DNA of 64,000 nt from Gari tellinella (taxonomy: Eukaryota > Mollusca > Bivalvia > Cardiida > Psammobiidae). The notes under the pieces were generated by a model. That model searched no databases, was not told the origin of the DNA, and was given only the letters and a program-made list of their open reading frames with translations. Every line of letters begins with the position of its first letter. The stretch's first letter is position 1. Made by a program: the position numbers and the translations under genes. Positions 4,675 to 59,820 of this stretch are shown piece after piece. The stretch lies in NCBI GenBank assembly GCA_922989275.2, contig OV277871.1:63075848-63139847 (forward strand). Direction: 5' to 3'.

Positions 4675-7600
4675 GAGGTGTAGCTAGATATACATTCAAT
4701 TCATTCATGGTGATCAAGGGACAATCATGGTTTTAATGCTTCAGACCAAATAAATGTGTATTTAGTCATATGGTGTAAGTAATAGATAAAGAATACATGT
4801 AAGTGGCATCATGCATATATCCGGTATAAGAGAGACAACTGTAACTGAAAAAGGTTTACTTAAACATTTGAATTGTCTCCCTTTACTTAAAATATGCTTG
4901 CAGAAATCAAATCTTTTCAATCCCAAGTTGCCAAATCTATAAATCCAGGGCTCCAGACAAGATAAAGCAAACTAGACAAATTCAACATTTTGTTCCTCAC
5001 TTCAGCACCAAATCCCATGATGCGACTACTTGTCAGAATCGTCTCAAAGAGACGATTCTAACGAGCAATGATCCCACAGGGCCCAATGCCGAAATAAAGT
5101 TTAAGTTTTGACTATTACCTTTATCTGGAGCTCTGTAAATTACTTATAATTTCAGATAGTTTCAGACAGTTGGGATCCTGATCGGATGTCATGAAGCTTG
5201 GCATCTGATCAGGACCCAAACTGCTTGACACTCATGTAAACCTTTTAGATCCTCTAATAAATTCATGCACTGCACTGAAAATATTGAGATTTTCTTTGTC
5301 ATTTAAATATCTTTTCCCAAATAATAATGTATCTAAGTTCAGAGGTTGAAATTTACTAATTGAATGAAATAAAGTTAGTCTTGGCTGTGTATAATTCTTA
5401 CAGGTAAAGAAGAAATGTTCTGCATCTTCAATAGCTTCAGTACATGTCAGTTGTTTCATAACCCTTGTACAATAGATAAGGCTTAACCCCTTCACTGCTT
5501 TACTCTGAATACAATGGTTCATTGCAAACAGTTTGGGTCCTGATCAGACATTGCTTAAAACAGATTCTATGATCAGGATCCAAACTGTTTGACACTCATT
5601 CAGTATTTCTTACTAAGTCGAAATACCTAAACCTAATATTAATTTAAATGTAGACAACATTAATTATTGTTTAACCCATTACTCGTAATATGCCTGTAAT
5701 TGAATGCTGAACTGTTCAGGATACTTTATCTTGAACCCTCTTCTGTGTCTTATGTTCAGAACTTCCTACAGTGGAGAATCTGTTATTCTTTCCCGTTTAA
5801 ACGCAAACGTACACAAACGCAAAACACTAAAACGTAGAAAAGAACAACTTTTGGACAATTCTGATATTTCATGTTTATCTTGGTGGCAAAAAGTTTGGAG
5901 CCTGATCAGACGCCGGGTTACCCGGCGTCTGATCTGGCTCCAAACTGTTTGTTTTGGAAATAATAGTTTTAGCGTAAACGCGTTTATTGGGAAAGAATAA
6001 CACATTCTCCACTGTATATTGGGACTAGTTAACATAGAGTAAAAAATATTCAGAGGATAAAAAGTCAGATTTATGGAGTAATAGGTTAACCCATTACGCC
6101 ATAAACTTGCTTTTTACGCCTTTAATTTATTCCTCCCCTGAAGAAAACTATACAATCATGAGTATGTATCAGAGGAAAAAGTTCTGCTTTACTTTAAACC
6201 TGCTTTATGTGGTCACCTGTCTTCAAAATTACAAATATGTTGTGGTGTAATAGGTTAAGAGAGCATGATTCTCAGAGATCATTACTGAACACAGGTTTTA
6301 TTGTACTCTACCATTGTTTGCCAGGCTCTGACATGGAACACATTTCTTTCTAGGTTGCTATTATGGCCACAGCAGCCAGCGCTATACTGGGGTGGCCTTT
6401 CGCTGGTGTTTTAGGGTGAGCATCTTTGGTTTTCATTTTATTTTAACACTATAACTGCGATGGTTTTACAATTTAGCGTGAACATTTCTTCACATGGTCC
6501 TGATATTTCAGCATAGTTATTTTGTGTTTCAGAGTACCAATAGCGTTTGACATAGTGATACGGAAGAAGAGGTTTCAGCTGTTCACATTGTGGTGTGCTA
6601 TAGCCTTCGTCACATTTCTGGTGAGATACACATATCTGCATTTTAACACTTTACCAATACTATTTCAATGCCTTTTATTCATCCACTGAAGAAAATAGTT
6701 ACAATGTATACAGTCATGAATATGTGCCATAAGAATTATTAACTTTATCCCAGCAGATTGTAGCTAAAAGCGGTTTAAAGTTAAGCTTAAGGCACTTTCT
6801 GCTTTACTTTCAACCAACATGTAATTGGTTTAAACAGTATTAATTTCAAAATACCATAAAAATTCATGTATGGATTAGAAAACAAGTTACTGAAAACTTA
6901 TGTACATTCTTCAACCTACTTTAAGTGAGTGCCTATCTTTAACATATCAGAAACAGGCTTTGGGGTAAAGGGTTAAGGAGCTTGATACACTGATGTTTAC
7001 ATATTTGAGTTGTGTGTTACAGATACCATTGGTTCAGATAGACCAGTATTACTATGGCCGACTGATAGTCACTGATGTTAACATATTTGAGTTGTTTGTT
7101 TTACACATACCATTGGTTAAGATAGACCAGTATTACTATGGCCGACTGATGTTTACATATTTGAGTTGTGTGTTACAGATACCGTTGGTTCAGATAGACC
7201 AGTATTACTATGGCCGACTGATAGTCACTGATGTTTACATATTTGAGTTGTGTGTTACAGATACCATTGGTTCAGATAGACCAGTATTACTATGGCCTAC
7301 TGATGTTTACATATTTGAGTTGTGTGTTACAGATACCGTTGGTTCAGATAGACCAGTATTACTATGGCCGACTGATGTTTACATATTTGAGTTGTGTGTT
7401 ACAGATACAGTTGGTTCAGATAGACCAGTATTACTATGGCCGACTGATGTTTACATATTTGAGTTGTGTGTTACAGATACCATTGGTTCAGATAGACCAG
7501 TATTACTATGGCCCACTGATGTTTACATATTTGAGTTGTGTGTTACAGATACCGTTGGTTCAGATAGACCAGTATTACTATGGCCGACTGATGTTTACAT

Positions 7601-10600
7601 ATTTGAGTTGTGTGTTACAGATACAGTTGGTTCAGATAGACCAGTATTACTATGGCCGACTGATAGTCACTGATGTTAACATATTTGAGTTGTTTGTTTT
7701 ACACATATCATTGGTTCAGATAGACCAGTATTACTATGGCCGACTGATGTTTACATATTTGAGTTGTGTGTTACAGATACCGTTGGTTCAGATAGACCAG
7801 TATTACTATGGCCGACTGATGTTTACATATTTGAGTTGTGTGTTACAGATACAGTTGGTTCAGATAGACCAGTATTACTATGGCCTACTGATGTTTACAT
7901 ATTTGAGTTGTGTTTTACAGATACCATTGGTTCAGATAGACCAGTATTACTATGGCCGACTGATAGTCACTGATGTTTACATATTTGAGATGTGTGTTAC
8001 AGATACCATTGGTTCAGATAGACCAGTATTACTATGGCCGACTGATAGTCTCTGATGTTAACATATTTGAGTTGTTTGTTTTACACATATCATTGGTTCA
8101 GATAGACCAGTATTACTATGGCCGACTGATGTTTACATATTTGAGTTGTGTGTTACAGATACCATTGGTTCAGATAGACCAGTATTACTATGGCCTACTG
8201 ATGTTTACATATTTGAGTTGTTTGTTACAGATACCATTGGTTCAGATAGACCAGTATTACTATGGCCTACTGATGTTTACATATTTGAGTTGTGTGTTAC
8301 AGATACCGTTGGTTCAGATAGACCAGTATTACTATGGCCGACTGATGTTTACATATTTGAGTTGTGTGTTACAGATACCGTTGGTTCAGATAGACCAGTA
8401 TTACTATGGCGAACTGATAGTTACTGATGTTTACATATTTGAGATGTGTGTTACAGATACCATTGGTTCAGATAGACCAGTATTACTATGGCCTACTGAT
8501 GTTTACATATTTGAGTTGTTTGTTACAGATACCATTGGTTCAGATAGACCAGTATTACTATGGCCTACTGATGTTTACATATTTGAGTTGTGTGTTACAG
8601 ATACCGTTGGTTCAGATAGACCAGTATTACTATGGCCGACTGATAGTCTCTGATGTTAACATATTTGAGTTGTTTGTTTTACACATATCATTGGTTCAGA
8701 TAGACCAGTATTACTATGGCCGACTGATGTTTACATATTTGAGTTGTGTGTTACAGATACCATTGGTTCAGATAGACCAGTATTACTATGGCCTACTGAT
8801 GTTTACATATTTGAGTTGTTTGTTACAGATACCATTGGTTCAGATAGACCAGTATTACTATGGCCTACTGATGTTTACATATTTGAGTTGTGTGTTACAG
8901 ATACCGTTGGTTCAGATAGACCAGTATTACTATGGCCGACTGATGTTTACATATTTGAGTTGTGTGTTACAGATACCGTTGGTTCAGATAGACCAGTATT
9001 ACTATGGCCGACTGATGTTTACATATTTGAGTTGTGTGTTACAGATACCGTTGGTTCAGATAGACCAGTATTACTATGGCGGACTGATAGTTACTGATGT
9101 TAAAGACATACATGTGCAAATGAAATTTCCATAAAAATGTCTTTATACTTTGTTAACATATACACTCAACCATTTTAAGAAAGAAAATAAAAAGAAAGTA
9201 TTGGGTTATGGTGCTTAATTTTCAAATATAGGCTTTTACAAATATGACCCTTGATCATTTTTGAACACCGCTGAGAAATAATTTTTAAAACTGCAGCTGA
9301 TTATCTTTAAGTTTCTCTCTTTGCTAATTTGGTAATATTTTATGTTGAGTCAAGTGTTATTTCATCAAATTGATATAAATAAAGTATATCAAAGTGATTC
9401 TACTGGTAAAATGTAACAATTTAAAGAATAACTAGGAAACAAAATTTACACTGGCACTCTCTTTTATACGAACTTTTTCCATTTTCGAAATAAAAATGTT
9501 CAAAAAATTACTAAATTTTTATAATCACCCATAATAATTTGTTTTTACTTGGCAGAAACAATGATTACTCATACCCATCAGAAAATGTAAAGAAACCTAG
9601 GTGTCATCATGCTTATTTATGGAATATGGTCAAAATTCTAACCCTACCCCCTAGATTTTATGCAGAAAAATTACCCCCCCCCGCAAGCCAATTTAGGTCT
9701 CTGTTGACCTTAAAATGAGAAATATTCATCCAATATTTGCTTAAATTGGTTAATATATGAGTGTATGTTAGTACAACAGCATTTAATAATGTTTTAGTTA
9801 CTTCAAGGATTACAGTGCTGCTGATAAAAACAAAAACATGTTTTCTACAAAATATGCCACTCGGGACAGTTTTTTTCAATTCTTGAAACAGTGCCTGTAC
9901 AGAAAAGCCTATAATTCACATAATTTACATACATGAACTTTTCAAAATTCATTTTTGTGGTTATAAATGCATTGCAGACCAGAAAATATATAGTAATCAA
10001 GGTATTTAAGAAGTTTATTTTTCAACATTTTTTATTTGCAAGCGTATGTCTTTAACATGTTTGAGTTGTGTGTTACAGATACCATTGGTTCAGATAGACC
10101 AGTATTACTATGGCCGACTGATAGTCACTCCTCTCAACATAGTGCTGTACAATGTGTTCACTCCCCATGGACCAGACCTCTATGGTAAGACACTCCTTCA
10201 TGTGTGGATGATGAATAACGTTTGTCTTCTAAAACTGTTGATTTAGCTTTCTGCATTACTTTCGTCCTGTATTGTGCTCTGGCCTTGATGTAACATTCCA
10301 TGCTAATTCATCTTCTGAATGGTTGCCTAGCATAGGATTTGTAACTAATTCAATAGTTAGTACCGTCTTTTGCCAGGTATTGTGCGCATCCATGTCTAGT
10401 ACGCACCTGTATTTTAGGGTTAAATGTCTGGAAAAAACTTTTTCCCGAGGATTCTTGTCAGTTCTCGTACGCATGTTTTCTCCTGCTGAACGCATGTTTT
10501 TTTTAAATGAAGAGAGTTCCGTAGGCATGTTTTTTGACCATGAAAATCTGTTAAATATGTGATAATCACAAGTATTCTGATAGTCAGGGGTGAAATCCGC

Positions 10601-13600
10601 CCGTCGAAGTTCCCAAAAATAAGGTGCGACCGTGTTTCAAAAACTGGAAACGAATCAAGAAATTTTTATATGGGCATAATTAATTGTCATTTCTAGCATC
10701 ACATTAGAACAGGAATGTAATATACGTTCCTGATTAGAATCACCCCACATTATTCTGTGTAAGTTTGTAGATCCGTTTATAAGGATTAAAATATATAAAT
10801 ACTAAACATTTATTGTATCAAATTATTTCATCACTAGTATTTATTGAATTAAAAAAAAATATGATAGAATACGGATGTTCCTAAAAAGGTACAAAAAGTT
10901 TCGCTCTGAAAATCGAGTGCCGCAAATCCAATGAATAATCCGGAAATCATAAATTCAATTATGCGCTGTTGGGGCCCAGAAATGGCGGGTGTTTTTATAC
11001 AGTGACACTTTGTTTCTACGATGCAACCAGAGCTAAGTTTACTTCCATTGCACGCAATAAATATGAATAACAACTCGTTTATTTACTTTCTTTCTCTCTC
11101 AGTTCAAAATGCCTACCGATTTTGATTGCATAATATGCTCCCTCGAAAGAAGCTTCGAATAATGAGGGCTTGCATTCTCAGATCGGGGACTAATTTAAAT
11201 AACTTATAAGCAATCAAGTGTAACAACATCAACAGTTTAAATCCAAACAATCAATACTGATTATAAATGGGGTCACAAGTGTGTCATCTCCAATAAACAG
11301 CCCTAATCCCCAACTCTGGGAGGTGTCAATAAAAGCCCTACAGCATATTGCGCAATCTTAACACATATGCCTACGATCGCTAACGTAGGCTGGAGAGGCT
11401 TGTTCCCATCTATTGTACGCACCCCCAGATTGCAGAAAAAAATATTTTATGTTAAAAGCGTGCACAATACATGGCAAAAGACGGTAGTAAGTAAATCAAT
11501 TGACACTGTGATTTTATACTTACAGGTGTGGAGCCGTTATCTTACTACTTCATCAATGGCTTCCTCAATTTTAACATTGTCTTCCTGCTGGCTCTGGTCT
11601 CCCTCCCCTTTGCGGTAAACACTTGTTTCCCTTAGCACATTGATATCTAGAGTTATGTTAATGATTGTATTGTAGACCTGGGCCTGTATTCACAAAATGC
11701 CAATGTGAGCTATTAGGATTGATTGAGGTCCGTCCTCTGTCTGTCTTTAATAATGTCCAGTCAAAAACTAGGTCACCTAGGTCAAATCATAGAAATATCT
11801 TGTTAACATTCTAGAAATACAAACCTCATTTGATCTTTATGAAACTTGCTCAAAATGTTTGCCTCACTGAAATCTAGACTACAGTGAAATGTGGGTCATA
11901 TCGGTTCAAAATCTAGGTCACTATAGGTCAAGCATATAGTGTTCTATATAATTATGTACATCCAAAGGTTATGTTTTATACCTTCTTTCTCAGCAAAAAA
12001 ACTGAGCTTTTTTCAAAAGTTTAATTGTGCATTTGAACAATTCAGTATAAAAGGGATTATCTTTTTCAACACTTAAAACTGTTGTGGATTATTACGTTCC
12101 TTTGTGGATCTTTTTAGTTACCAAAACATGAATCAGTCTACATGGAATTCTGCGTAGTTTTAACATATACTGACCAGTCTGAATTAGAAAAACAGTGCAT
12201 ACCCTGATCAGAGGGCTCCTTTAGGAGCCCTTTGAACTGGGTCTACACTGTTTTCAAATGTAATGAGTATATTTAAAACAGATTCATGGTGTTGCAAGAG
12301 TTACTGTCACCTACACCATTGTGTATTTCAGATTCTTACAAGATGGAAGCTAAAGGAGAGAGGTGGAGGTAACTTTATCCGATCATTACATTCTTAACTC
12401 CTTCATTACACACTGTTATTGGTAGACAGTTTGGATCCTGATCAGACACCAAGCTTAGACGCAGTGTCCAGTCAATGTTTCACCCAGTACTCCATAAATA
12501 CATATTTTACGCTTTTAATCTATTCCTCCATTGAAGAAAATAGCTCTGCTTTATAGCCATGCATATGCACCACAAGAAATACTTTGGATAACCTTGGTAT
12601 ACCAGCTCTTGTTTGTTTTAGGTATACCAGCTCTTGTTTGTTAGCTCATCTGAGCCAAAGGCTCAAGGTGAGCTATTGGAATGGCCCTGTGTCCGTCGTG
12701 GTGCGTTGTCCGTCATCGTTAACAATTGCTTCAAATGACATCTCCTTCTCTACCGCTTGACAGATTTCAACCAAACTTTACAGGAATGTTCCTTGGGTGA
12801 AGCTCTTTCAAATTTGTTCAAAGAATTTAAAACAATGTAGAACTCTGGTTGCCATGGCAACCAAAGTGAAAAAATAAGGAAATCTTAAAAAATCTTCTTG
12901 TCTGAAACTGCAAGGGCAAGAGCTTAGATATTTGGCACATAGCATCATCTACAGGTCCTCTATCAAGTTTGTTCAAATTATGCCCCTGGGGTCAAAATTG
13001 GCCCCGCCCCGGGGGGTCACAGTTTTACATAGAGTTATATAGTGAAATTTTCAAACATCTTCTCCTCTGAAACTAATATGACCAGAGCTTTGATATTCGG
13101 TATGGTGACACTTCTAAATACCCTTTACTTGTTTTGTTCAAATGGTTCCGGTCTGTTGCATATCTAGGTCACAGGAGCTAAAAATAAATTTTTTCAATGG
13201 AAACTTAAAAAATCTTCTGGTCTAAAACCCTAGTACCCTGATCTTAGATATTTGGCACATAACATCATCTACATGTCCTCTATCAAGATTGTTCAAATTA
13301 TGCCCCTTGGGTAAAAAATGACCCCGTCCTGGACATAAATCATTATCTCCATTTTGTCAGCTATTCTCAGGTGAGCAAAATATGCCCCATGGGGCTCTTG
13401 TTTCAGGTATACCAGCTGTTGTTTGTTTTAGGTATACCAGCTGTTGTTTGTTTTAGGTATACCAGCTGTTGTTTGTTTTAGGTATACCAGCTCTTGTTTG
13501 TTTTAGGTATACCAGCTCTCATTGTGATGTCTCCAATGTATATATGGATTCTGATCTTCTTTACAAGACCACATAAGGTATGTGTACTTTCATCAGATCT

Positions 13601-16600: not shown

Positions 16601-19600
16601 CTGGGGTTGCTGCTCCTGCATCCTGCATCGGGACATTAACCATGGTTAAGCCTGGATGCCCTCGCTTCCGTTTCCCATGTTTAGGGGTCCACAGCACCAC
16701 ATTACTAGCTGGCAGCTCCTTGTGTCTGTAGCAGTGGCCGGCTTGCCCCATTCTTCGGCAGCCAATCTTGTCTGTCACTCTAGGAATGTCCTGATAGAGG
16801 GTGTCATTCTTGATGTGCTGGCCTGGGTTGATGCTCAGAACTTGTCTTAGCATCTTGGTGTAGCAGCCATCAAGGGACTTCTGGAGTTGAGAAGTGACTG
16901 TCCAGCATTCAGAGCCATATAGAAATACAGACTCGACTTTTGCGAAGAAGAAGCTAAGCTTTGTATTGCGAGACATTTGTGAGCTTCAAACTGCTTTCAT
17001 CCCATTTAGAGCTCTCCATGCAAGGGCTTTCCTAACCTTGATGTCTTTCTCAGAGGTATTTACCCATGAACCCAAGTATTTAAAGTCATGAACCTCTTTG
17101 AGAGTTGAACCTCCAATGGTGGTCAAGGGGGCGTGATCTTGTGGTTGGCAGAAGGTAATTACTTCAGTCTTCTTGGCATTGAGTGTCAGGCCAACTTTTG
17201 CACACTCTGTCTCTACCCTGGTTAAAAGCTCCTGTGCTTGGTGTGTGCTATTTGAGAGAAGACCTATGTCATCTGCAAAGTCTAGATCTGTAAGGACGAC
17301 CTCAGGTGTTCTTGATGATCTGCGGGGTGTAATAGTCAGTCATAGGTCCACTTCTCTTCCTTGGATTGCTTGTCTAAGAGCATAATCAAGCACAATGATG
17401 AAAAGGTAGGGTGCTAGGGTGTCTCCTTGTAGCACTCCTGCTGTGACCTCAAATTCATTGCTGTCGCTGTCTGGTGTTACGACCTTGGCTCTTGTATTGG
17501 AGTACATTGACTCCATAGCACACAGCAGGTTCGGTGGAATGTCATACGCCCTAAGTATTTTCATCATTTTGCCTCGATGAATGGAGTCAAAGGCCTTTTT
17601 AAAGTCTATGAAACACAGTACAGCTGGTAAGTTGTTTCTTTTTTAGCTCGCCTATTCGGAGAATGGGGGGGCTTATGGAATCACCCCGGCGTCGGCGTTG
17701 GTTTTTCATGGTTAAAGTTTTGGGGTAAGTGTTGTTATGCACGAATACATCATGAAATATTTGCATTAGGAAGCTGATATTTGGATTGGAGGTGTCCTGT
17801 GGGTTGGACATTGATTTTGTGTAGTTAAAATTAAAAAAAAAGTTTAAATTTAGTCAAAATTTCACCTTTTGTGGACTTAGGTTTTTCGGCTGATTTCTCA
17901 TGGTTAAAGTTTTGGGGTAAGTGTTGTTATGCACTAATACTACATGAAATATTTGTATTAGGAAGCTGATATTTGGAATGGAGGTGCCCTGTGGGTTGAA
18001 CATTGATGTTATGTAGTTAGAATTAAAAAAAAAGTTTAAATTTAGTCAAAATTTTACCTTTTGTGGACTTAGGTTTTTCGCCTGATTTCTCATGGTTAAA
18101 GTTTTGGGGTAAGTGTTGTTATGCACTAATACTACATGAAATATTTGTATTAGAAAGCTGATATTTGGATTGGAGGTGCCCTGTGGGTTGAACATTGATG
18201 TTTCGTAGTTTGAATTTAAAAAAAAGTTTAAATTTAGTCAAAATTTTACATATTGTGGACTTAGGTTTTTCGGCTGATTTCTCATGGTTAAAGATTTGGG
18301 GTAAGTGTTGTGATGCTCTAATACTACTTGAAATAATTGTATTAAGAAGCTGATATTGGGAATCAAGGTGCTCTGTGGGTTGAACATTGATGTTACGTAG
18401 TTAAAATTTAAAAAAAAGTTAAAATTTAGTCAAAATTTCACCTGTTTATGACTTAGGTTTTTCGGCTGATTTCTCATGGTTAAAGTTTTGGGGTAAGAGT
18501 TCTAATACTACATGAAATATTTGTATTAGGAAGCTGATATTTGGAATGGAGGTGCCCTTGGGTTGAACATTGAAGTTGCGTAGTTATTTTTTTTTAAAAA
18601 GTTTAAATTTAGTCAAAATTACACCTTTTGTGGACTTTGGGGCTGAAATTTCAAAGTTAGTTAAGGAGTAAGTGTTGGAATGCACTTATACTACATGTCA
18701 TATTTGCATTAGGAAGTTGATATTTTGAATGGAGGTTCCCTGTGGCTTGAATATCAATGTACTGATACACTTTTCTTTTGATAGTTACCTATTTAAGAAA
18801 GGTTTAATTAGGCGAGCTTTGCTGTTCTCCGACAGCTCTTGTTCTTCTTCTATGATCCGCCTCAGTGCTAGGATCTGGGCAGCTGTAGTGCGTTTCTCCC
18901 GAAAGCCGTTCTGATTCTCCCTCAAGTGGGGGTCTATGGCTGTCTGTATTCTGTTCAGGATCATTTTGTTTCTCATCTTTGCTGTTACACAAGATAGGCT
19001 GATACCCCTGTAGTTGTCTGACTTTGAGAGATCTCCTTGAGAAATAAGTAGCAAACCGATTGGATCCATGTTAGACGCCGAGTTCCTCAGTCGCTGTTCT
19101 GGGTCTAATCTGTCTGCATAAGCCTAACAGTCGTGAAAAGTAAGTCAGTATTAATTCTAGTGAAAAGATCTTTACATATGAATCAAGCAAGATTTAAATA
19201 TGTGAATGGATTTTTAATTTAATAATTATACGTGTGTTAACCCATTTAACACTAGTGTCTACTAAAGTGTATACCCTCCGTGGTGAGACGTCGCGTTACA
19301 CGGTGTCACATTATGGTCTGCACTGTTTGCTATGTAATCTTGATATGAATTTCGAACATCCAAACAGTTAGGATCCTGATCAGACGCTGATTTTCTCGGC
19401 GTCGGGGTATTATCCAGGCTGTCTGTAACTTTTTAGCTCAACTGAGCACAAAGTGCTCAAGGTGAGTTATTGTGATCGGTTGCCGTCCGTCGTACGTCCG
19501 TGTCAGTGTCCGTGTCGTCTGTTCACAATTTGTTTCAAATAACTTCTTCTCTGAAACAAATGGCCCAATTTTAACCAAACTTGGTCAGATACAATCTGTA

Positions 19601-28600: not shown

Positions 28601-31600
28601 AAAAATGGTAGCTACTTGGGTGTGGCATTAGCGAAAGGAAACTTATCTTCTACGAAATACGAAGATTAATGCGATTCTATAAGTGGATAAAACAACCCCG
28701 ACTAACGGAGGATAATACTCACATAGGAACATCGTATGTACACAGTATGTAAGCAAAAAATATTTCATTTAATCCCAGTTACTCATTTAAATCACTATTT
28801 CACGTTTGCATCAATTAATAATTGTCAAATACGAGTGATATATATAATTTTTTAAAAATGGCACGTTGGATCCACAAATGGTACGTTGATGTAGTGGGGC
28901 GTTGATGCGGTGGGGCGTTGAGACCAGACACCCTACAAACTACGGCTTCAAATCAATTTAATAGGTGCTTGAACTTGTAATGTGATAAATAGAATATCAC
29001 ATTCGTGTTCATTATTCATCATTTTTAATAAACTCGTTGACTAAAATGAATATGACGCTCGCCAAGGCTCGCGTCATATTATTTTAGTCAACTCGTTTAT
29101 TAAAAATGATAAATAATGAACACTCATACAATATCCTCTATTTACGCATTAAATTCATTCCTTCACTGAAAAAAGTTACTTGTTATACAGTTTGAATATG
29201 AAACGCAAGAAATATTTCCTGTATCCTAGTCGATGATTGTTTAAAGCATGCTGAAAGTAAAGCAGAATATGCCTTTTGTTTCATTCTGCTTTACTCTCAA
29301 CCTGCTTTAACCCATTACCCAATAGCCTGTTTCTAGTTTTGAAAACAGGTGACCACTTAAAGCAGGTTGAAAGTAAAGCAGAATGCGCCTTAAGGCGCAT
29401 TCTGTTTTACTTTCAGCCTGCTTTAAGCTAAAATCTGCTAGGAAAAGGAGATTTTTCTTATGATACATACTCCTTAATGTATAAAGTGGAAATATTTTCT
29501 TTAGATGAAGAATAAATTAAAGGTGTAGAAAGGCGTATTTATGGGGTAATGGGTTAAATGGTCATCTGACTTCAGTATGGGACTATGGGCTAAGAATTGT
29601 TAGTTTGAAGTTTCAGTGATCAATGAGTTTGTTTGTATTTCAGAAATGGTGGCAGCGTCTGTTCCCAGGCAAGAGAAAGCAACACTACACAGACTCCGCT
29701 GGCTGGATAGCTGTGTTCTTTGGTATCTTCTTCACGTTGCTGTCTGTCTCTAGAATGGTGGCCTTGTACCAGGGTTAGTTCACAACTTACTTCCCTTTTA
29801 TTACATTGTTACAACGTGGTTCAAAGAGTTACATGTATAACTTCAATATAATAAGTGCAAAATGTATGTGTGATATATCATTTTAAAGAGCAATTCTTTA
29901 CCAACACTCTGGTATAATGCATGATAACATCACATAAGTCGATAAGGTGTTGAGGTCGTCTGTTTTTAGCTCTGCTGTTCTAAATGTATATACAGATGTT
30001 TTACATCTTAATGTTTAGATTGATGGGTAAAGCAGGGACAGACGAGACATTATGTAACAAGGAGTTGTTGTTTAGGAATTAAAATCAGTCTAGATAACTG
30101 TGTAACTTGATGATGCAGCTGGACATCAAACTGTTTGCAACAGTTTTCACAATTTTGTCAATAACCCTTTACTCCATAGCCTGTTTCTAGTATTGAAGAT
30201 AGGTAACTACTTAAAGCAGGTTGAAACTAATGCAGAATGTGCCTTAATGTACATTCTGCTTTACATTCAGCCTGCTTGAAGCTACATTCTGCTAAAATAT
30301 AGAAAATATTTCTTATGGTACATGTTTTATGATTTGTAATTTGAACTATTTTTCTTCAGTGGAGGAATGAATTAAGGACTTTTTTCATTGAGTAATATAT
30401 TTCTGACGGTACATGTGCATGACTGTATAAAGTGGAACTATTTTCTACAATGAGCATTTTGAGATCAAAACAGGTGTGTACTGATAAGTTTTGTATTGAT
30501 AGGCACCTATTTAAAAACAGGGCTGCCATTTCTTCGCAGGCTGAAAGCAATTGAGCTTGAAAAACAGAAAATTTCGAAATCTTAGGATTTTTAGCTCACC
30601 TGGCACGAAGTGCCAAGGTGAGCTTTTAGGATCGCTGGATGTCAGTCGTCCGTCGTCTGTCTGTCTGTCTGTCCGTCCACAATTGGTTGTGAACACTCTA
30701 GCGGCTACAAATGTCATCCGATCTTCATGAAACTTGATGACAATGTTTGTCTTGATAAAATCTAGGCCAAGTTCGAATGTGGGTCATGTCGGGTCAAAAA
30801 CTAGGTCACTAGGTCAAATCATAGGAAAACCTTGTGAACACTCTAGAGGCTACAAATCTCATTGGATCTTAATGAAACTTGGTCAGAATGTTTGCCTCAT
30901 TGATATCTAGGTCAAGTTTGAATGTGGGTCATGTCAGGTCAAAAACTAGGTCACTAGGTCAAATCATAGAAAAACCTTGTGAACACTCTTGAGGCTACAA
31001 ATCTCATTGGATCTTGATGAAACTTGGTCAGAATGTTTGTCTCATTGATATATAGGTCAAGTTCGAATGTGGGTCATGTCCGGTCAAAAACTAGGTCACT
31101 AGGTCAAATCATAGAAAAACCTTGTGAACACTCTAGAGGCTACAAATCTCATTGGATCTTGATGAAACTTGGTCAGAATGTTTGTCTCATTGATATCTAG
31201 GTCAAGTTCGAATGTGGGTCATGTCCGGTCAAAAACTAGGTCACTAGGTCAAATCATAGAAAAACCTTGTTAACACTCTAGAGGCTACAAATCTCATTGG
31301 ATCTTGATGAAACTTTATCAGAATGTTTGTTTCATTGATTTAGGTCAAGTTTGAATATGGGTCATGTCCGGTCAAAAACTAGGTCACTAGGTCAAATCAT
31401 AGAAAAACCTTGTTAACACTCTAGAGGCTTCAAATCTCATTGGATCTTAGTGAAATTTGGTCAGAATGTTTGTCGCATTATATCTAGGTCAAGTTTGAAT
31501 ATGGGTCATGTCCGGTCAAAAACTAGGTCACTAGGTCAAATCATTGGAAAATCTTGTTTACACTCTAGAGGTTGATTGTGGGTATACATGTCCAGTCATA

Positions 31601-39536: not shown

Positions 39537-41624
39537 CAAGGGCCACCATGGCCCTAAATCGCTCACCTGGTACACAATGTAAAACTTGTCCTATAGTGAC
39601 TTAGATTACGACTGGATCAACATGACCCACTATCAACCTTTAGAGTGTTAACAAAATGTTTCTATAATTTGACCTAGTGACAAAGTTTTTGACCAGACAC
39701 AATCAACATTTGATTTTGACCTAGATTTGATGTAGGCAAATATTCTGACAATATTTATACCCCCACAAACAGAGTTTGAGGGGGGTATACTGGAATCAGC
39801 CTGTCGGTCGGTTGGCCGTTGGTCGGTCGGTCTGTCTGCAAAATCTTGTACTTTCAACTCCTCCTTCAGTTTCAACCCGATTCATTTGATACTTGACATA
39901 GATGTTACTCAGGTGTAGTAGATTTGCAAGACACAAATTTCAGGTCTCTGTGACCTTGACCTTTGGCCTTGAAATTGGCAGGCAAAATCTTGTACTTTCA
40001 ACTCCTCTTTCAGTTTCAACCCGATTCATTTGATACTTGGCATAAATGTTACTCAGGTGTACTAGATGTGCAAGACACAAATTTCAGGTCTCTGTGACCT
40101 TGACCTTTGGCCTTAAATTTGGTCTTGAAATTGGCAGGCAAAATCTTGTACTTTCAACTCCTCCTTCAGTTTCAACCCGATTCATTTGATACTTGGCATA
40201 GATGTTACTCAGGTGTAGTAGATGTGCAAGACACAAATTTCAGGTCTCTGTGACCTTGACCTTTGGCCTTGAAATTGGTAGGCAAAATCTTGTACTTTCA
40301 ACTCCTCTTTCAGTTTCAACCCGATTCATTTGATACTTGGCATAAATGTTACTCAGGTGTACTAGATGTGCAAGACACAAATTTCAGGTCTCTGTGATCT
40401 TGACCTTTGGCCTTAAATTTGGTCTTGAAATTGGCAGGCAAAATCTTGTACTTTCAACTCCTCTTTCAGTTTCAACCCGATTCATTTGATACTTGGCATA
40501 GATGTTACTCAGGTGTAGTAGATGTGCAAGACACAAATTTCAGGTCTCTGTGACCTTGACCTTTGTCATTTAAAATGGTCTTGAAATTGGCAGGCAAAAT
40601 CTTGTACTTAACTCCTCCTTCACTTTCACCCTTATTCACTTGATACTTTCCATAAATGTTACTAAGGAGTAGTAGATGTGCAAGACACACATTTATAATC
40701 TCTGTGACCTTGATCTTTGGCCTTGAAATTGGCAGGCAAAATCTTGTACGGCGAACTCCTTCACTTTCAACCTGATATACTTGATACTTGCCATAAATTT
40801 TCCAAGTTTTTATGATGGTGGCAGCACCCTGCCATTGTCAAACCTCATTGAAAACGTCTGCAGAGTGTGACAGAGTGCTGCATAGTGGGGGTATTTATCA
40901 CCTTTAGTGATAGCCGTTCTAGTTCATTCAGATCTAGTGAGATTTGTAGCTTCATGAATGTTAAGCTGTTTTTCTATGATTTGACCTAGTGACCTAGTTT
41001 TTTACCAGACATGACCCACATTCAAACTTGACCTAGATATCAATGAGGCAAACATTTTGACCAAGTTTCATTAAGATCCAATGAAATTTGTAGCTTCTAG
41101 AGTGTTAACAAGGTTTTTTGATGATTTGACCTAGTGACCTAGTTTTTAACCAGACATGACCCACATTCGAACTTGACCTAGATATCAATTAGACAAACAT
41201 TCTGACCAAGTTACATGAAGATCCATGAGATTTGTATAGCCTCTAGAGTGTTAACAAGGTTTTTTGATGATTTGACCTAGTGACCTAGTTTTTGACTGGA
41301 CATGACCCACATTCGAACTTGACCTAGATATCAATGAGGCAAACATTGTGACCAAGTTTCATGAAGATCAAATGAAATTTGTAGCCGCTAGAGTGTTAAC
41401 AAGGTTTTTTCGATGATTTGACCTAGTGACCTAGTTTTTGACCTGACATGACCAATATTCGAACTTGACGTAGATTTCATGGAGGCAAACATTGTGACCA
41501 AGTTTCATTAAGATCAAATGAAATTTGTAGAGGCTAGAGTGTTAATGAACAATTGTGGACGTACGACGGACATCCAGCGATCCTAATAGCTCACCTTGGC
41601 ACTTCGTGCCAGGTGAGCTAAAAA
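39537..41624 (-). mobile_element. Minus-strand AGCTC-hairpin element, split by a second element
   Basis: Read on the minus strand it starts AGCTCACCTGGCACGAAG and ends AGCGATTTAGGGCCATGG, TGGCCCTTGTT, like 30593-31672. Its ~144 bp core units (GACCTAGTGACCTAGTTTTT in plus reading) are at 40940-41560. The other element occupies 39772-40923. The whole insertion splits a TTAA MITE between GAAGAAA and TTCCATT. Confidence 0.8.
39772..40923 (+). mobile_element. TACCCCC-hairpin element with ~150 bp tandem units, nested
   Basis: Start TACCCCCACAAACAGAG with the partner TTTGAGGGGGGTA. End GGGGGTATTTATCACC, TTTAGTGATAGCCGTTCTAG. Seven core units repeat AAAATCTTGTACTTTCAACT, CGATTCATTTGATACTTGGC and CTGTGACCTTGACCTTTGGC. 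The CTAG end is Helitron-like (inference). Confidence 0.75.
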
Positions 41625-51529: not shown

Positions 51530-52307
51530 ACCATAACCAATTCAACAATATATGTGAAGGACTTCTAGAAGTTATACCATGCCAAATATCAAAGCTCTGG
51601 TCATATTGGTTCCAGAGAAAAAGATGTTTGAACATTTCACTAAATAACTATGTAAAACTGTGATCCCCGGGGCAGGGCCATAATTTGAACAAATTTGATA
51701 GAGGATCTGTAGATGATGCTATGTGCAAAATATCTAAGCTTAGTGTACTATGGTTTCAGACAAGAAGATTGTTTTAAGTTCTCATGGAAAAAATCTATTT
51801 TTAGCTCCGGTGACCCAGATATGCAACGGACCGGAACCAATTCAACAATATATGTCAAATACCTCTAGAAGTTATACCATGCCAAACATCAAAGCTCTGG
51901 TCATATTGGTTTCAGAGAAAAAGATGTTTGAACATTTCACTATATAACTCTATGTAAAATGGTGACCCCCGGGGCGGGGCCAATTTTGACCCCAGGGGCA
52001 AAATTTGAACAACTTTGATAGAGGACCTATAGATGATGCTATGTGCCAAATATCTAAGCTCTGGCCCTTGTGGTTTCAGACGAAGATTTTTTAAGATTTC
52101 CTTATTTTTTCACTTGTTTCAAATTCTTTGAACAACTTTGAAAGAGCTTGACCCAAGGAACATTCCTGTGAAGTTTGGTTGCAATCAGACCAGTAGTTTT
52201 GAAGAAGAAGATGTTTGAAGAAATTGTAGACACACGACGAACGACGCCGGACAAAGACCGACCACAAAAGCTCACCTTGAGCTCTTTGTGCTCAGGTGAG
52301 CTAAAAA

Positions 52308-57856: not shown

Positions 57857-59820
57857 CAAGACAGCCATGATGGCCCTGATTTCCCCAACTGAAAGAACTT
57901 TGACCACATGCCCAGATATCAAAGTAAACATTTTGACCCAATTTTGAGAAAGAAAGGCCAATAGATCTGACTGGAAGAGTGTAAAGGAGTGAAAAATTAG
58001 GATAAAAGAAATTACTCCCTAGAGTGTAAACAAGAATGCTACGATTTGACTTAGTGATCTATGTAAGGCAAACATTATATTTAACTCTAGGGCAGACAGT
58101 AGACACAGCTTGATGCTAGGCCATAACAAGTATATACTCTAAGTCTTTACAACGAGAGCACCGCAAACGGGTGCTGGACGCTCGACTTTCATATACTTGA
58201 GACGGCTATATTTTTCAAACTTAAAGAATGTGTATGGGTGTTTAATGCCCTATTGATCATAGAAGTTTGTAAGCAACAACAACTTAAACATACTTGGACA
58301 GTCTACATTCCACTTAAAGTAAACTATAAGTCAAAAGAAGGACAATATCTTTGCCTGCTTTACCTGCCTTGTTGTAATGCGTTGCCCTTTTGAAACTAAT
58401 CAAGTATTCAAATATATTGGAAGTTTGAAATTAATAACTTTCTACGGTTACTGAATAATTTCATATACAAATTCTTAGTCAAACAAGGGCAATAACTCTG
58501 CAATGACAAATCTCATGGTTATCTGCTGTGTTGAAAGGTGATGCCCTTTTGAAACTGAACAAGCATTAAAAGTTTCAAGTTAATACCTATTGTAATTATT
58601 GAGAAATTTCAATTTACAAGTTTTATGTAAATAAAAACAAGGGCAATAACTCTAGAATGGCAAATCCCGGTCACCTCTCTTGTTTGAATGAGTTGCCCTT
58701 TTGTTATAACACAAGTATTTAAAGTTTCAAGTTAAAACCTTTGACAGTTATTAAGATATTTCAATTTACAAGTTTTAAGTAAATAAATCAAGGGCAATTA
58801 CTCTGGAATCACAAATCACAGAGTAACCTACCTTGTTGTAATGAGTTGTCCTTTTGATACTTAACAGGTATTTAAAGTTTCAAGTTAATATCTTTCATAG
58901 TTATTTAGATATGTTAATTTACAATTTTTAAGTAAATAAAACATGGGCAATAACTCTGAAATGACAAATCCCTGGATTACCTGCCTTGTTGTAATGAGTT
59001 GCCCTTTGATACTAAACAAGTATTCAAAGTTTCAAATGGATACCTTTGATAGTTATTGAGATATGTTAATTTGATAGTTATTGAGATATGTTAATTTATA
59101 ATTTTTAAGTAAATAAAACAGGGGCAATAACTCTGGAATGGCAAATCCTAGGGTTACCTGTCTTGTTGTAATGAGTTGCTCTTTTGATACTTAATAACTA
59201 TTCAAAGTTTCAAATGGATACCCCTGATAGTTATTGAGATATGTTAATTTATAATATTTAAGTAAATAAAACAAGGGCAATAACTCTGAAATGACAAAAT
59301 ACAGGGTCACCTGCCTTGTTGTAATGAGTTGCCCTTTTGATACTAAACAAGTATTCCAAGTTTCAAATGGATACCTTTGATAGTTATTGAGATATGTTAG
59401 TTTATAATTTTTAAGTAAATAAAATAGGGGCAATAACTCTGAAATGACAAATCCCAGGGTTACCTGCCTTGTTGTAATGAGTTGCCCTTTTGATACTGAA
59501 CAACTATTCAAAGTTTCAAATGGATACCTTTGATAGTTATTGAGATATGTTAATTTATAATTTTTAAGTAAATAAAACAAGGGCAATAACTCTGAAATGA
59601 CAAATCCCAGGGTTACCTGTCTTATTGTAATGAGTTGCCCTTTTAATACTGAACAACTATTCCAAGTTTCAAATGGATACCTTTGATAGTTATTGAGAAA
59701 TGGACTCTTACAAAAACCTTAAGCAAAAAACTTAACCGACACAGACGCAGACGCTGACGCAGACGCAGACGACAGGGTGACGACAATAGCTCGACTTTTT
59801 GAAAAAGTCGAGCTAAAAAT
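57857..59820 (-). mobile_element. Minus-strand AGCTCGAC-hairpin element with ~152 bp tandem core
   Basis: The minus strand starts AGCTCGACTTTTTCAAAAAG, TCGAGCT (a perfect hairpin), followed by a GTCTGCGTCTGCGTCAGCGT tract, and ends AATCAGGGCCATCATGGCTG, TCTTG. At least eight core units share GGGCAATAACTCTG at 58486, 58639, 58790, 58943, 59113, 59274, 59426 and 59578. Open frames across the units are by-products of the repetition. Confidence 0.8.

Follow-up and report, generated by a model that had tools for sequence, protein, structure and literature searches.

In the whole 64,000-nucleotide stretch of the Gari tellinella genome analyzed here (contig OV277871.1; hereafter, the window), the plus-strand gene ALG9, which encodes the alpha-1,2-mannosyltransferase of N-glycan assembly, carries tandem arrays of its own intron–exon junctions at the acceptors of exons 7 and 10. 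Minisatellites that span an exon–intron boundary, called mirages, have been reported from amphioxus as not disturbing splicing (PMC3087553 and PMC3902484). We hold, with a probability of about 0.8, that the arrays of this bivalve are two such mirages, that the larger one was founded by a duplication between two CACT tetramers, that exon definition favors its last copy, and that this array is a near-neutral by-product placing at most a weak burden on splicing. They are most likely a mollusc example of the amphioxus-type mirage, new for molluscs as far as the literature covered here extends.

Structure of the two acceptor arrays

The exons of ALG9 were placed by tblastn with an approximate human ALG9 sequence. 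When exons 2–16 (15 exons) were joined, they gave a single open frame of 517 codons and a stop, which was 56% identical to that approximate query. Exon 7 matched Pfam Glyco_transf_22 (E 6.3e-08), and among the matches listed the four closest ALG9 proteins were all from bivalves (Mactra antiquata, 74%; Mya arenaria, 74%; Dreissena polymorpha, 72%; Potamilus streckersoni, 71%), with a Branchiostoma entry at 57%. These matches point to a bivalve host, probably a heterodont, and the entries listed did not include the ALG9 of the host itself. An earlier reading of the letters alone (the sequence-only reading) had named the gene ALG9 and had placed a donor at 6621 and the real acceptor before 10079, with exon 7 in phase 0; the Pfam match, the 74% identity to bivalve ALG9, and the gene model agree on each of these points. 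The features needed below are as follows.

397–38436, plus strand: ALG9 exons 2–16 (spliced gene model; exons numbered within the window, the first exon or exons lying beyond it)
6533–6620, plus strand: ALG9 exon 6 (gene model; donor GT at 6621)
6988–6991, plus strand: CACT, intron-side tetramer of the putative founder duplication, with its exon 7 partner at 10126–10129 (sequence reading)
6990–9093, plus strand: acceptor minisatellite of 28 copies, units of 72, 74, or 82 bp (Tandem Repeats Finder and unit parsing)
9100–9103, plus strand: TTAA, left target-site duplication (sequence reading)
9104–10051, no strand assigned: 948-bp element bounded by terminal inverted repeats, interrupting the 29th unit at a TTAA site (inverted-repeat detection)
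10052–10055, plus strand: TTAA, right target-site duplication and start of the remaining 29th unit (sequence reading)
10079–10184, plus strand: genuine ALG9 exon 7, 106 nt, phase 0 start, its acceptor being the 29th copy (Pfam, tblastn, gene model)
12332–12368, plus strand: ALG9 exon 9 (gene model)
12596–12640, plus strand: second acceptor array, left part, two units with one AG at 12620–12621 (right end approximate, 12637–12642; sequence comparison)
12641–13399, no strand assigned: interspersed repeat splitting the second array (ends approximate; a relative 81% identical lies at 51674–52307 on the minus strand)
13400–13517, plus strand: second acceptor array, right part (left end approximate; Tandem Repeats Finder, sequence comparison)
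13507–13577, plus strand: genuine ALG9 exon 10 (gene model)

The unit of the large array spans the junction of intron 6 and exon 7. Tandem Repeats Finder reported it twice, at 7071–9088 with a period of 72 and 27.1 copies, and at 6989–9088 with a higher-order period of 454, 4.7 copies, and a score of 3307. Parsing by unit start gave 28 copies (16 of 72 bp, 8 of 82 bp, and 4 of 74 bp) with 17 distinct sequences. The 28 tandem junction copies of the sequence-only reading are thus found again at 6990–9093; its 72-bp unit holds for 16 of them, the rest being 82 or 74 bp, and the 82-bp form is the likely founder. It was also right that AG is kept in about 24 copies: the acceptor TTACAG/ATA (the slash marks the start of the exon) is present in 24 of the 28, and the four 74-bp copies (2, 10, 15, and 23) have ACAC. 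The first codons that it described as correct are altered in copies 6, 9, and 12, in which codon 2 is changed from P to Q.

The 24 decoys closely resemble the real site. Between positions −20 and +3, 18 of them differ from it only at −20, and the remaining six differ at one more position. An acceptor matrix derived from the remaining 13 ALG9 acceptors scored the decoys at 8.1–9.9 and the real site at 10.4; this matrix is small, and true acceptors left out of it score from −0.4 to 12.6. Ranked among all 2104 AG sites of the gene span, themselves counted in, the decoys fall at the 97.5th percentile or higher. In the 39-nt core of their exon parts, seven of the eight distinct substitutions are non-synonymous and one is synonymous. 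By chance, about three in four substitutions are expected to be non-synonymous, which is close to the observed share, so the exon parts of the decoys do not evolve as coding sequence. A protein database search with the translated array (275 codons, 7228–8052) gave no match at E 0.001 or better among the 7994 candidates scored.

The sequence-only reading treated the array as separate from the real exon, and this was not upheld. When the flanks of the 948-bp element are rejoined, they read ...ACTGATG-TTAA-CATGTTTGAGTTGTGTGTTACAG/ATACC, which is an ordinary array unit; the genuine exon 7 junction is copy 29, parted from copy 28 by the element. The 74-bp units also have TTAA at the place where the element is inserted. 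The arms of the element are 42 nt long and 76% complementary, and its longest stop-to-stop frame is 85 aa. A TTAA target-site duplication and terminal inverted repeats are found in piggyBac-type elements, the termini of which typically begin with CCY. We do not make this assignment, for which no family search was run: the ends read AGACATA, unlike those of piggyBac, and no transposase was found (longest frame 85 aa), so we describe it as a TTAA-flanked element. As a separate observation, its inverted repeats (9097–9138 and 10017–10058) could pair in the pre-mRNA, with a predicted energy of −31.4 kcal/mol, whereas 300 shuffles of the letters averaged −8.4. The predicted duplex would mask the one motif resembling a branch point that was found ahead of the real acceptor, and copy 28 would come to lie near exon 7.

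The start of exon 10 lies in a 25-bp tandem repeat, TTGTTTTAG/GTATACCAGCTSTTGT. The upstream acceptors of this second array precede positions 12622, 13407, 13432, 13457, and 13482, and the real one precedes 13507. A scan for acceptor relatives, which covered 14 of the 15 acceptors (exon 9 was left out) with some positions one base off, found relatives elsewhere in the window (≤ 6 mismatches per 32 nt) only for exons 7 and 10. Tandem arrays occupy about one-seventh of the gene span, as estimated from Tandem Repeats Finder, so arrays at 2 of 15 acceptors are unremarkable by length and we claim no enrichment of arrays on acceptors. The sequence-only reading was correct about the exon 7 array itself and had missed the inserted element, the founder duplication, the exon 10 array, and the amphioxus precedent.

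Putative origin of the large array

The junctions around the array point to a single founding event. The intron ahead of copy 1 reads ...GATA-CACT-GATG, the exon reads ...ATAGT-CACT-CCTC, and the internal junction of the 82-bp copies reads ...ATAGT-CACT-GATG. This mixed junction means that one tandem duplication between the two CACT tetramers explains the 82-bp unit, which would consist of 33 nt of the intron end and 49 nt of exon 7. The 72-bp unit probably arose from it by a 10-bp deletion between two CTGAT repeats. Later, blocks of several units would have been re-copied: the variants follow one another identically in copies 15–19 and 23–28, apart from an additional copy in the latter block, and such shared blocks fit unequal exchange or slippage within a minisatellite. 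The TTAA-flanked element would then have split the last copy, the working exon, from the other copies. All 49 exon bases are identical in copy 1 and the real exon, and likewise in the inner copy 13; agreement between the ends is common in tandem arrays.

Similar repeats in other genes and species

The printed amphioxus mirages comprise Adh3, the globins BflGb6 and BflGb9, and troponin C, with similar repeats in PGBD5; troponin C and PGBD5 were added as cases in PMC3902484. In all of these, as in the ALG9 arrays, a boundary-spanning unit lies in a working gene. The nearest in layout is BflGb6, in which the unit consists of the 3' end of an intron and the 5' part of an exon, with six and three units in two haplotypes (PMC3087553); homogenization is described inside the BflGb6 cluster. 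The same paper found splice signals in many but not all copies of the amphioxus arrays, considered the generating mechanism unclear, described a donor-side boundary array as well, and concluded from RT-PCR that the arrays seem not to interfere with splicing.

The ALG9 arrays share three features with the mirages: a boundary-spanning unit, a host gene with an intact frame across exons 2–16, and splice signals in many but not all copies (24 of 28 in the large array). They differ from the printed cases in their mollusc host (those cases share a cephalochordate host, which is not part of the definition), in having 28 copies as compared with the six and three of BflGb6, and in being known here from genomic sequence alone. 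Furthermore, there are two arrays in one gene, each split by an inserted element, and the insert in the large array has detached it from its own exon. Intron gain by tandem genomic duplication (e.g., potato RdRp, PMC4974935) likewise involves a local tandem duplication within a gene, but the ALG9 copies lie within an existing intron and neither create a new one nor alter the exon. Two other candidates were set aside as parallels: the repeats of a prawn lectin lie within an exon (PMC7536079), and for earthworm metallothionein the excerpt describes minisatellites in intron 1 and exon-4 duplications absent from transcripts, with no boundary-spanning unit found in it (PMC12783039). Among the matches listed from the open-licence literature, judged by titles and the starts of abstracts, there was no boundary-spanning minisatellite in a mollusc.

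We also surveyed ALG9 proteins, taking the best 120 of 3100 database matches. Repeated 10-mers occurred in three of them, P0012 (Owenia), P0018 (Gigantopelta), and P0058; the last was rejected as a relevant case, because its repeat is N-terminal and falls outside the ALG9 part. When the alignments of the same 120 proteins were scanned for insertions of at least 8 aa, P0012, P0018, and P0063 (Priapulus) emerged, and the 12-aa insert of P0063 was dismissed as neither a repeat nor at an exon start. When the first 37 proteins were aligned at two junctions, an insert beyond 3 aa at the exon 6/7 junction was present only in P0012, and no repeat was found at the exon 9/10 junction.

In Gigantopelta aegis, the ALG9 isoforms X1 (P0018) and X2 (P0016) are identical except for 119 residues in X1. 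This insert consists of seven 17-residue units, GTEPVSFYLVNGF[V/I]CFT, and is placed where exon 8 of the window gene begins. As in the window arrays, each unit starts at the residue that opens an exon (window exon 8), and the unit end VCFT-G could be coded by a U-rich acceptor (tgttttacag/g), as judged from the protein only. The Gigantopelta repeat differs from the window arrays in that it concerns another exon, is in frame, is annotated as an isoform, and comes from protein models alone. In the Owenia fusiformis model (P0012), repeated segments begin at positions corresponding to the 5' ends of exons 7, 13, and 15, the first placed by alignment and the other two by eye, with exon positions borrowed from the window gene. 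Together with the two window arrays, six of six such repeats start at acceptors, those of Gigantopelta and Owenia being gene models. We claim no acceptor-only rule, because of the donor-side case in PMC3087553, and no taxon enrichment, because only two proteins are relevant.

Predicted effects on splicing and alternative explanations

Entry at the first decoy (7023) had been said to run to a stop, and reading the frame gave that stop at 7671–7673. The predicted truncation extends to all 24 decoys of the large array, from which the frame stops at 7673, 8055, 8653, or 9134; with the element removed in silico, none of the 24 reads in frame into exon 7. In the second array, all five upstream acceptors also lead to a stop, so that premature stops follow from 29 of 29 upstream acceptors in both arrays (24 and 5).

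We next consider the donors. A donor matrix was built from 14 true ALG9 donors, the weakest of which scores 6.5. Unannotated GT sites scoring at least 6.5 number 67 in 38 kb, with none in the array and none between 6925 and 10184. A decoy exon would therefore be 1,140–3,162 nt long, as compared with 106 nt for the real exon. Under exon definition, a donor pairs across the exon with a nearby upstream acceptor. The donor at 10185 would pair with the acceptor 106 nt upstream, so that 6620 would mostly be joined to 10079; the nearest good donor for any decoy of the large array would be that of exon 7 itself, 1.1–3.2 kb away. Since no decoy has a donor as good as a true one before that of exon 7, exon definition should favor the last copy, so that the real acceptor is expected to prevail even with a sequence that is scarcely superior. 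The duplication across the acceptor was probably tolerated because the downstream-most copy retains the whole exon and its donor. Occasional use of a decoy would lead to a premature stop and probably to nonsense-mediated decay.

Several points weigh against this interpretation. Weaker donor-like sites are present, scoring 5.6 at 9405 and 5.5 at 7991, 8445, and 9766, and because the donor matrix is small and a single sequence of about 72 nt recurs throughout the array, the absence of good donors counts for little. The decoys (three examined) have both CTGAT and TTTAC as branch-point-like motifs, and the real site has had only TTAAC since the insertion of the element; a branch-point motif is absent from 8 of the 15 true acceptors, so this motif test is weak. 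Four of the five decoys of the second array lie only 25–100 nt upstream of the real acceptor, where exon definition cannot reject them, and leakage is likelier there. No second copy of the 948-bp element was found in the window, which leaves its ends to speak for its mobility. Finally, the Gigantopelta isoform X1 suggests that upstream acceptors can be used.

In a broader proposal, acceptor mirages would be recurrent in lophotrochozoan genes and their upstream copies would be used, the out-of-frame arrays of the bivalve acting as a copy-number-dependent, decay-coupled brake and the in-frame arrays of Gigantopelta adding variable peptide repeats to an essential endoplasmic reticulum enzyme. We consider this unlikely.

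The narrower idea of the sequence-only reading, i.e., a tunable switch in which decoys compete with the real site, their products are degraded, and copy number sets the ALG9 output, is quite improbable in our view. The 24 near-identical acceptors of the large array, the premature stops from 29 of 29 upstream acceptors, and the presence of two such arrays in one gene would all suit it. However, uniform stops are expected from reading intron sequence, the decoys show no sign of coding constraint (seven of eight substitutions non-synonymous), within 1.1 kb of the large-array decoys no donor reaches the level of the true ones, and the amphioxus arrays are reported to be harmless to splicing in the excerpts of PMC3087553 and PMC3902484. 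We found no evidence of regulation, and the switch is not supported.

A further alternative is that the decoys delay the removal of intron 6 by binding U2AF and U2 snRNP non-productively, which would raise intron retention. All 24 units with AG contain the branch-point-like motifs CTGAT and TTTAC and are U-rich ahead of the AG, the motif scan having covered three of them, but the copies show no sign of constraint; this, too, appears to have only a small chance of being correct. An assembly error in the copy number or the whole array is least probable of all, given that 17 distinct units form an orderly higher-order pattern, that the founder junction is clean, and that the insert has target-site duplications, even though long near-identical tandem repeats are error-prone, the draft-genome version of one amphioxus array was apparently aberrantly assembled (PMC3087553), and the exact copy number could still be wrong.

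The large array offers a natural locus for the study of splice-site choice, in which 24 decoys almost identical to one another are followed 1 kb downstream by the real site; in classic minigene experiments, one or two splice sites were duplicated to probe the choice made by the spliceosome. With four decoys 25–100 nt upstream in the second array, two distance regimes would be available within one transcript. The mirage phenomenon would apparently be extended from lancelets to molluscs with a legible founder event, which bears on how splice-site duplications originate and are tolerated and on whether they may seed new introns or isoforms.

Other repeats were also observed in the window. On the minus strand, at 16989–17642 and 18788–19123 within an ALG9 intron, there are broken reverse-transcriptase frames (Pfam RVT_1), with a third just under the cut-off. 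Further tandem arrays, with units of 145–156 bp, lie at 30687–31571, 39838–40798, 40923–41545, and 58481–59702, and the first of these sits in an ALG9 intron without reaching an exon.

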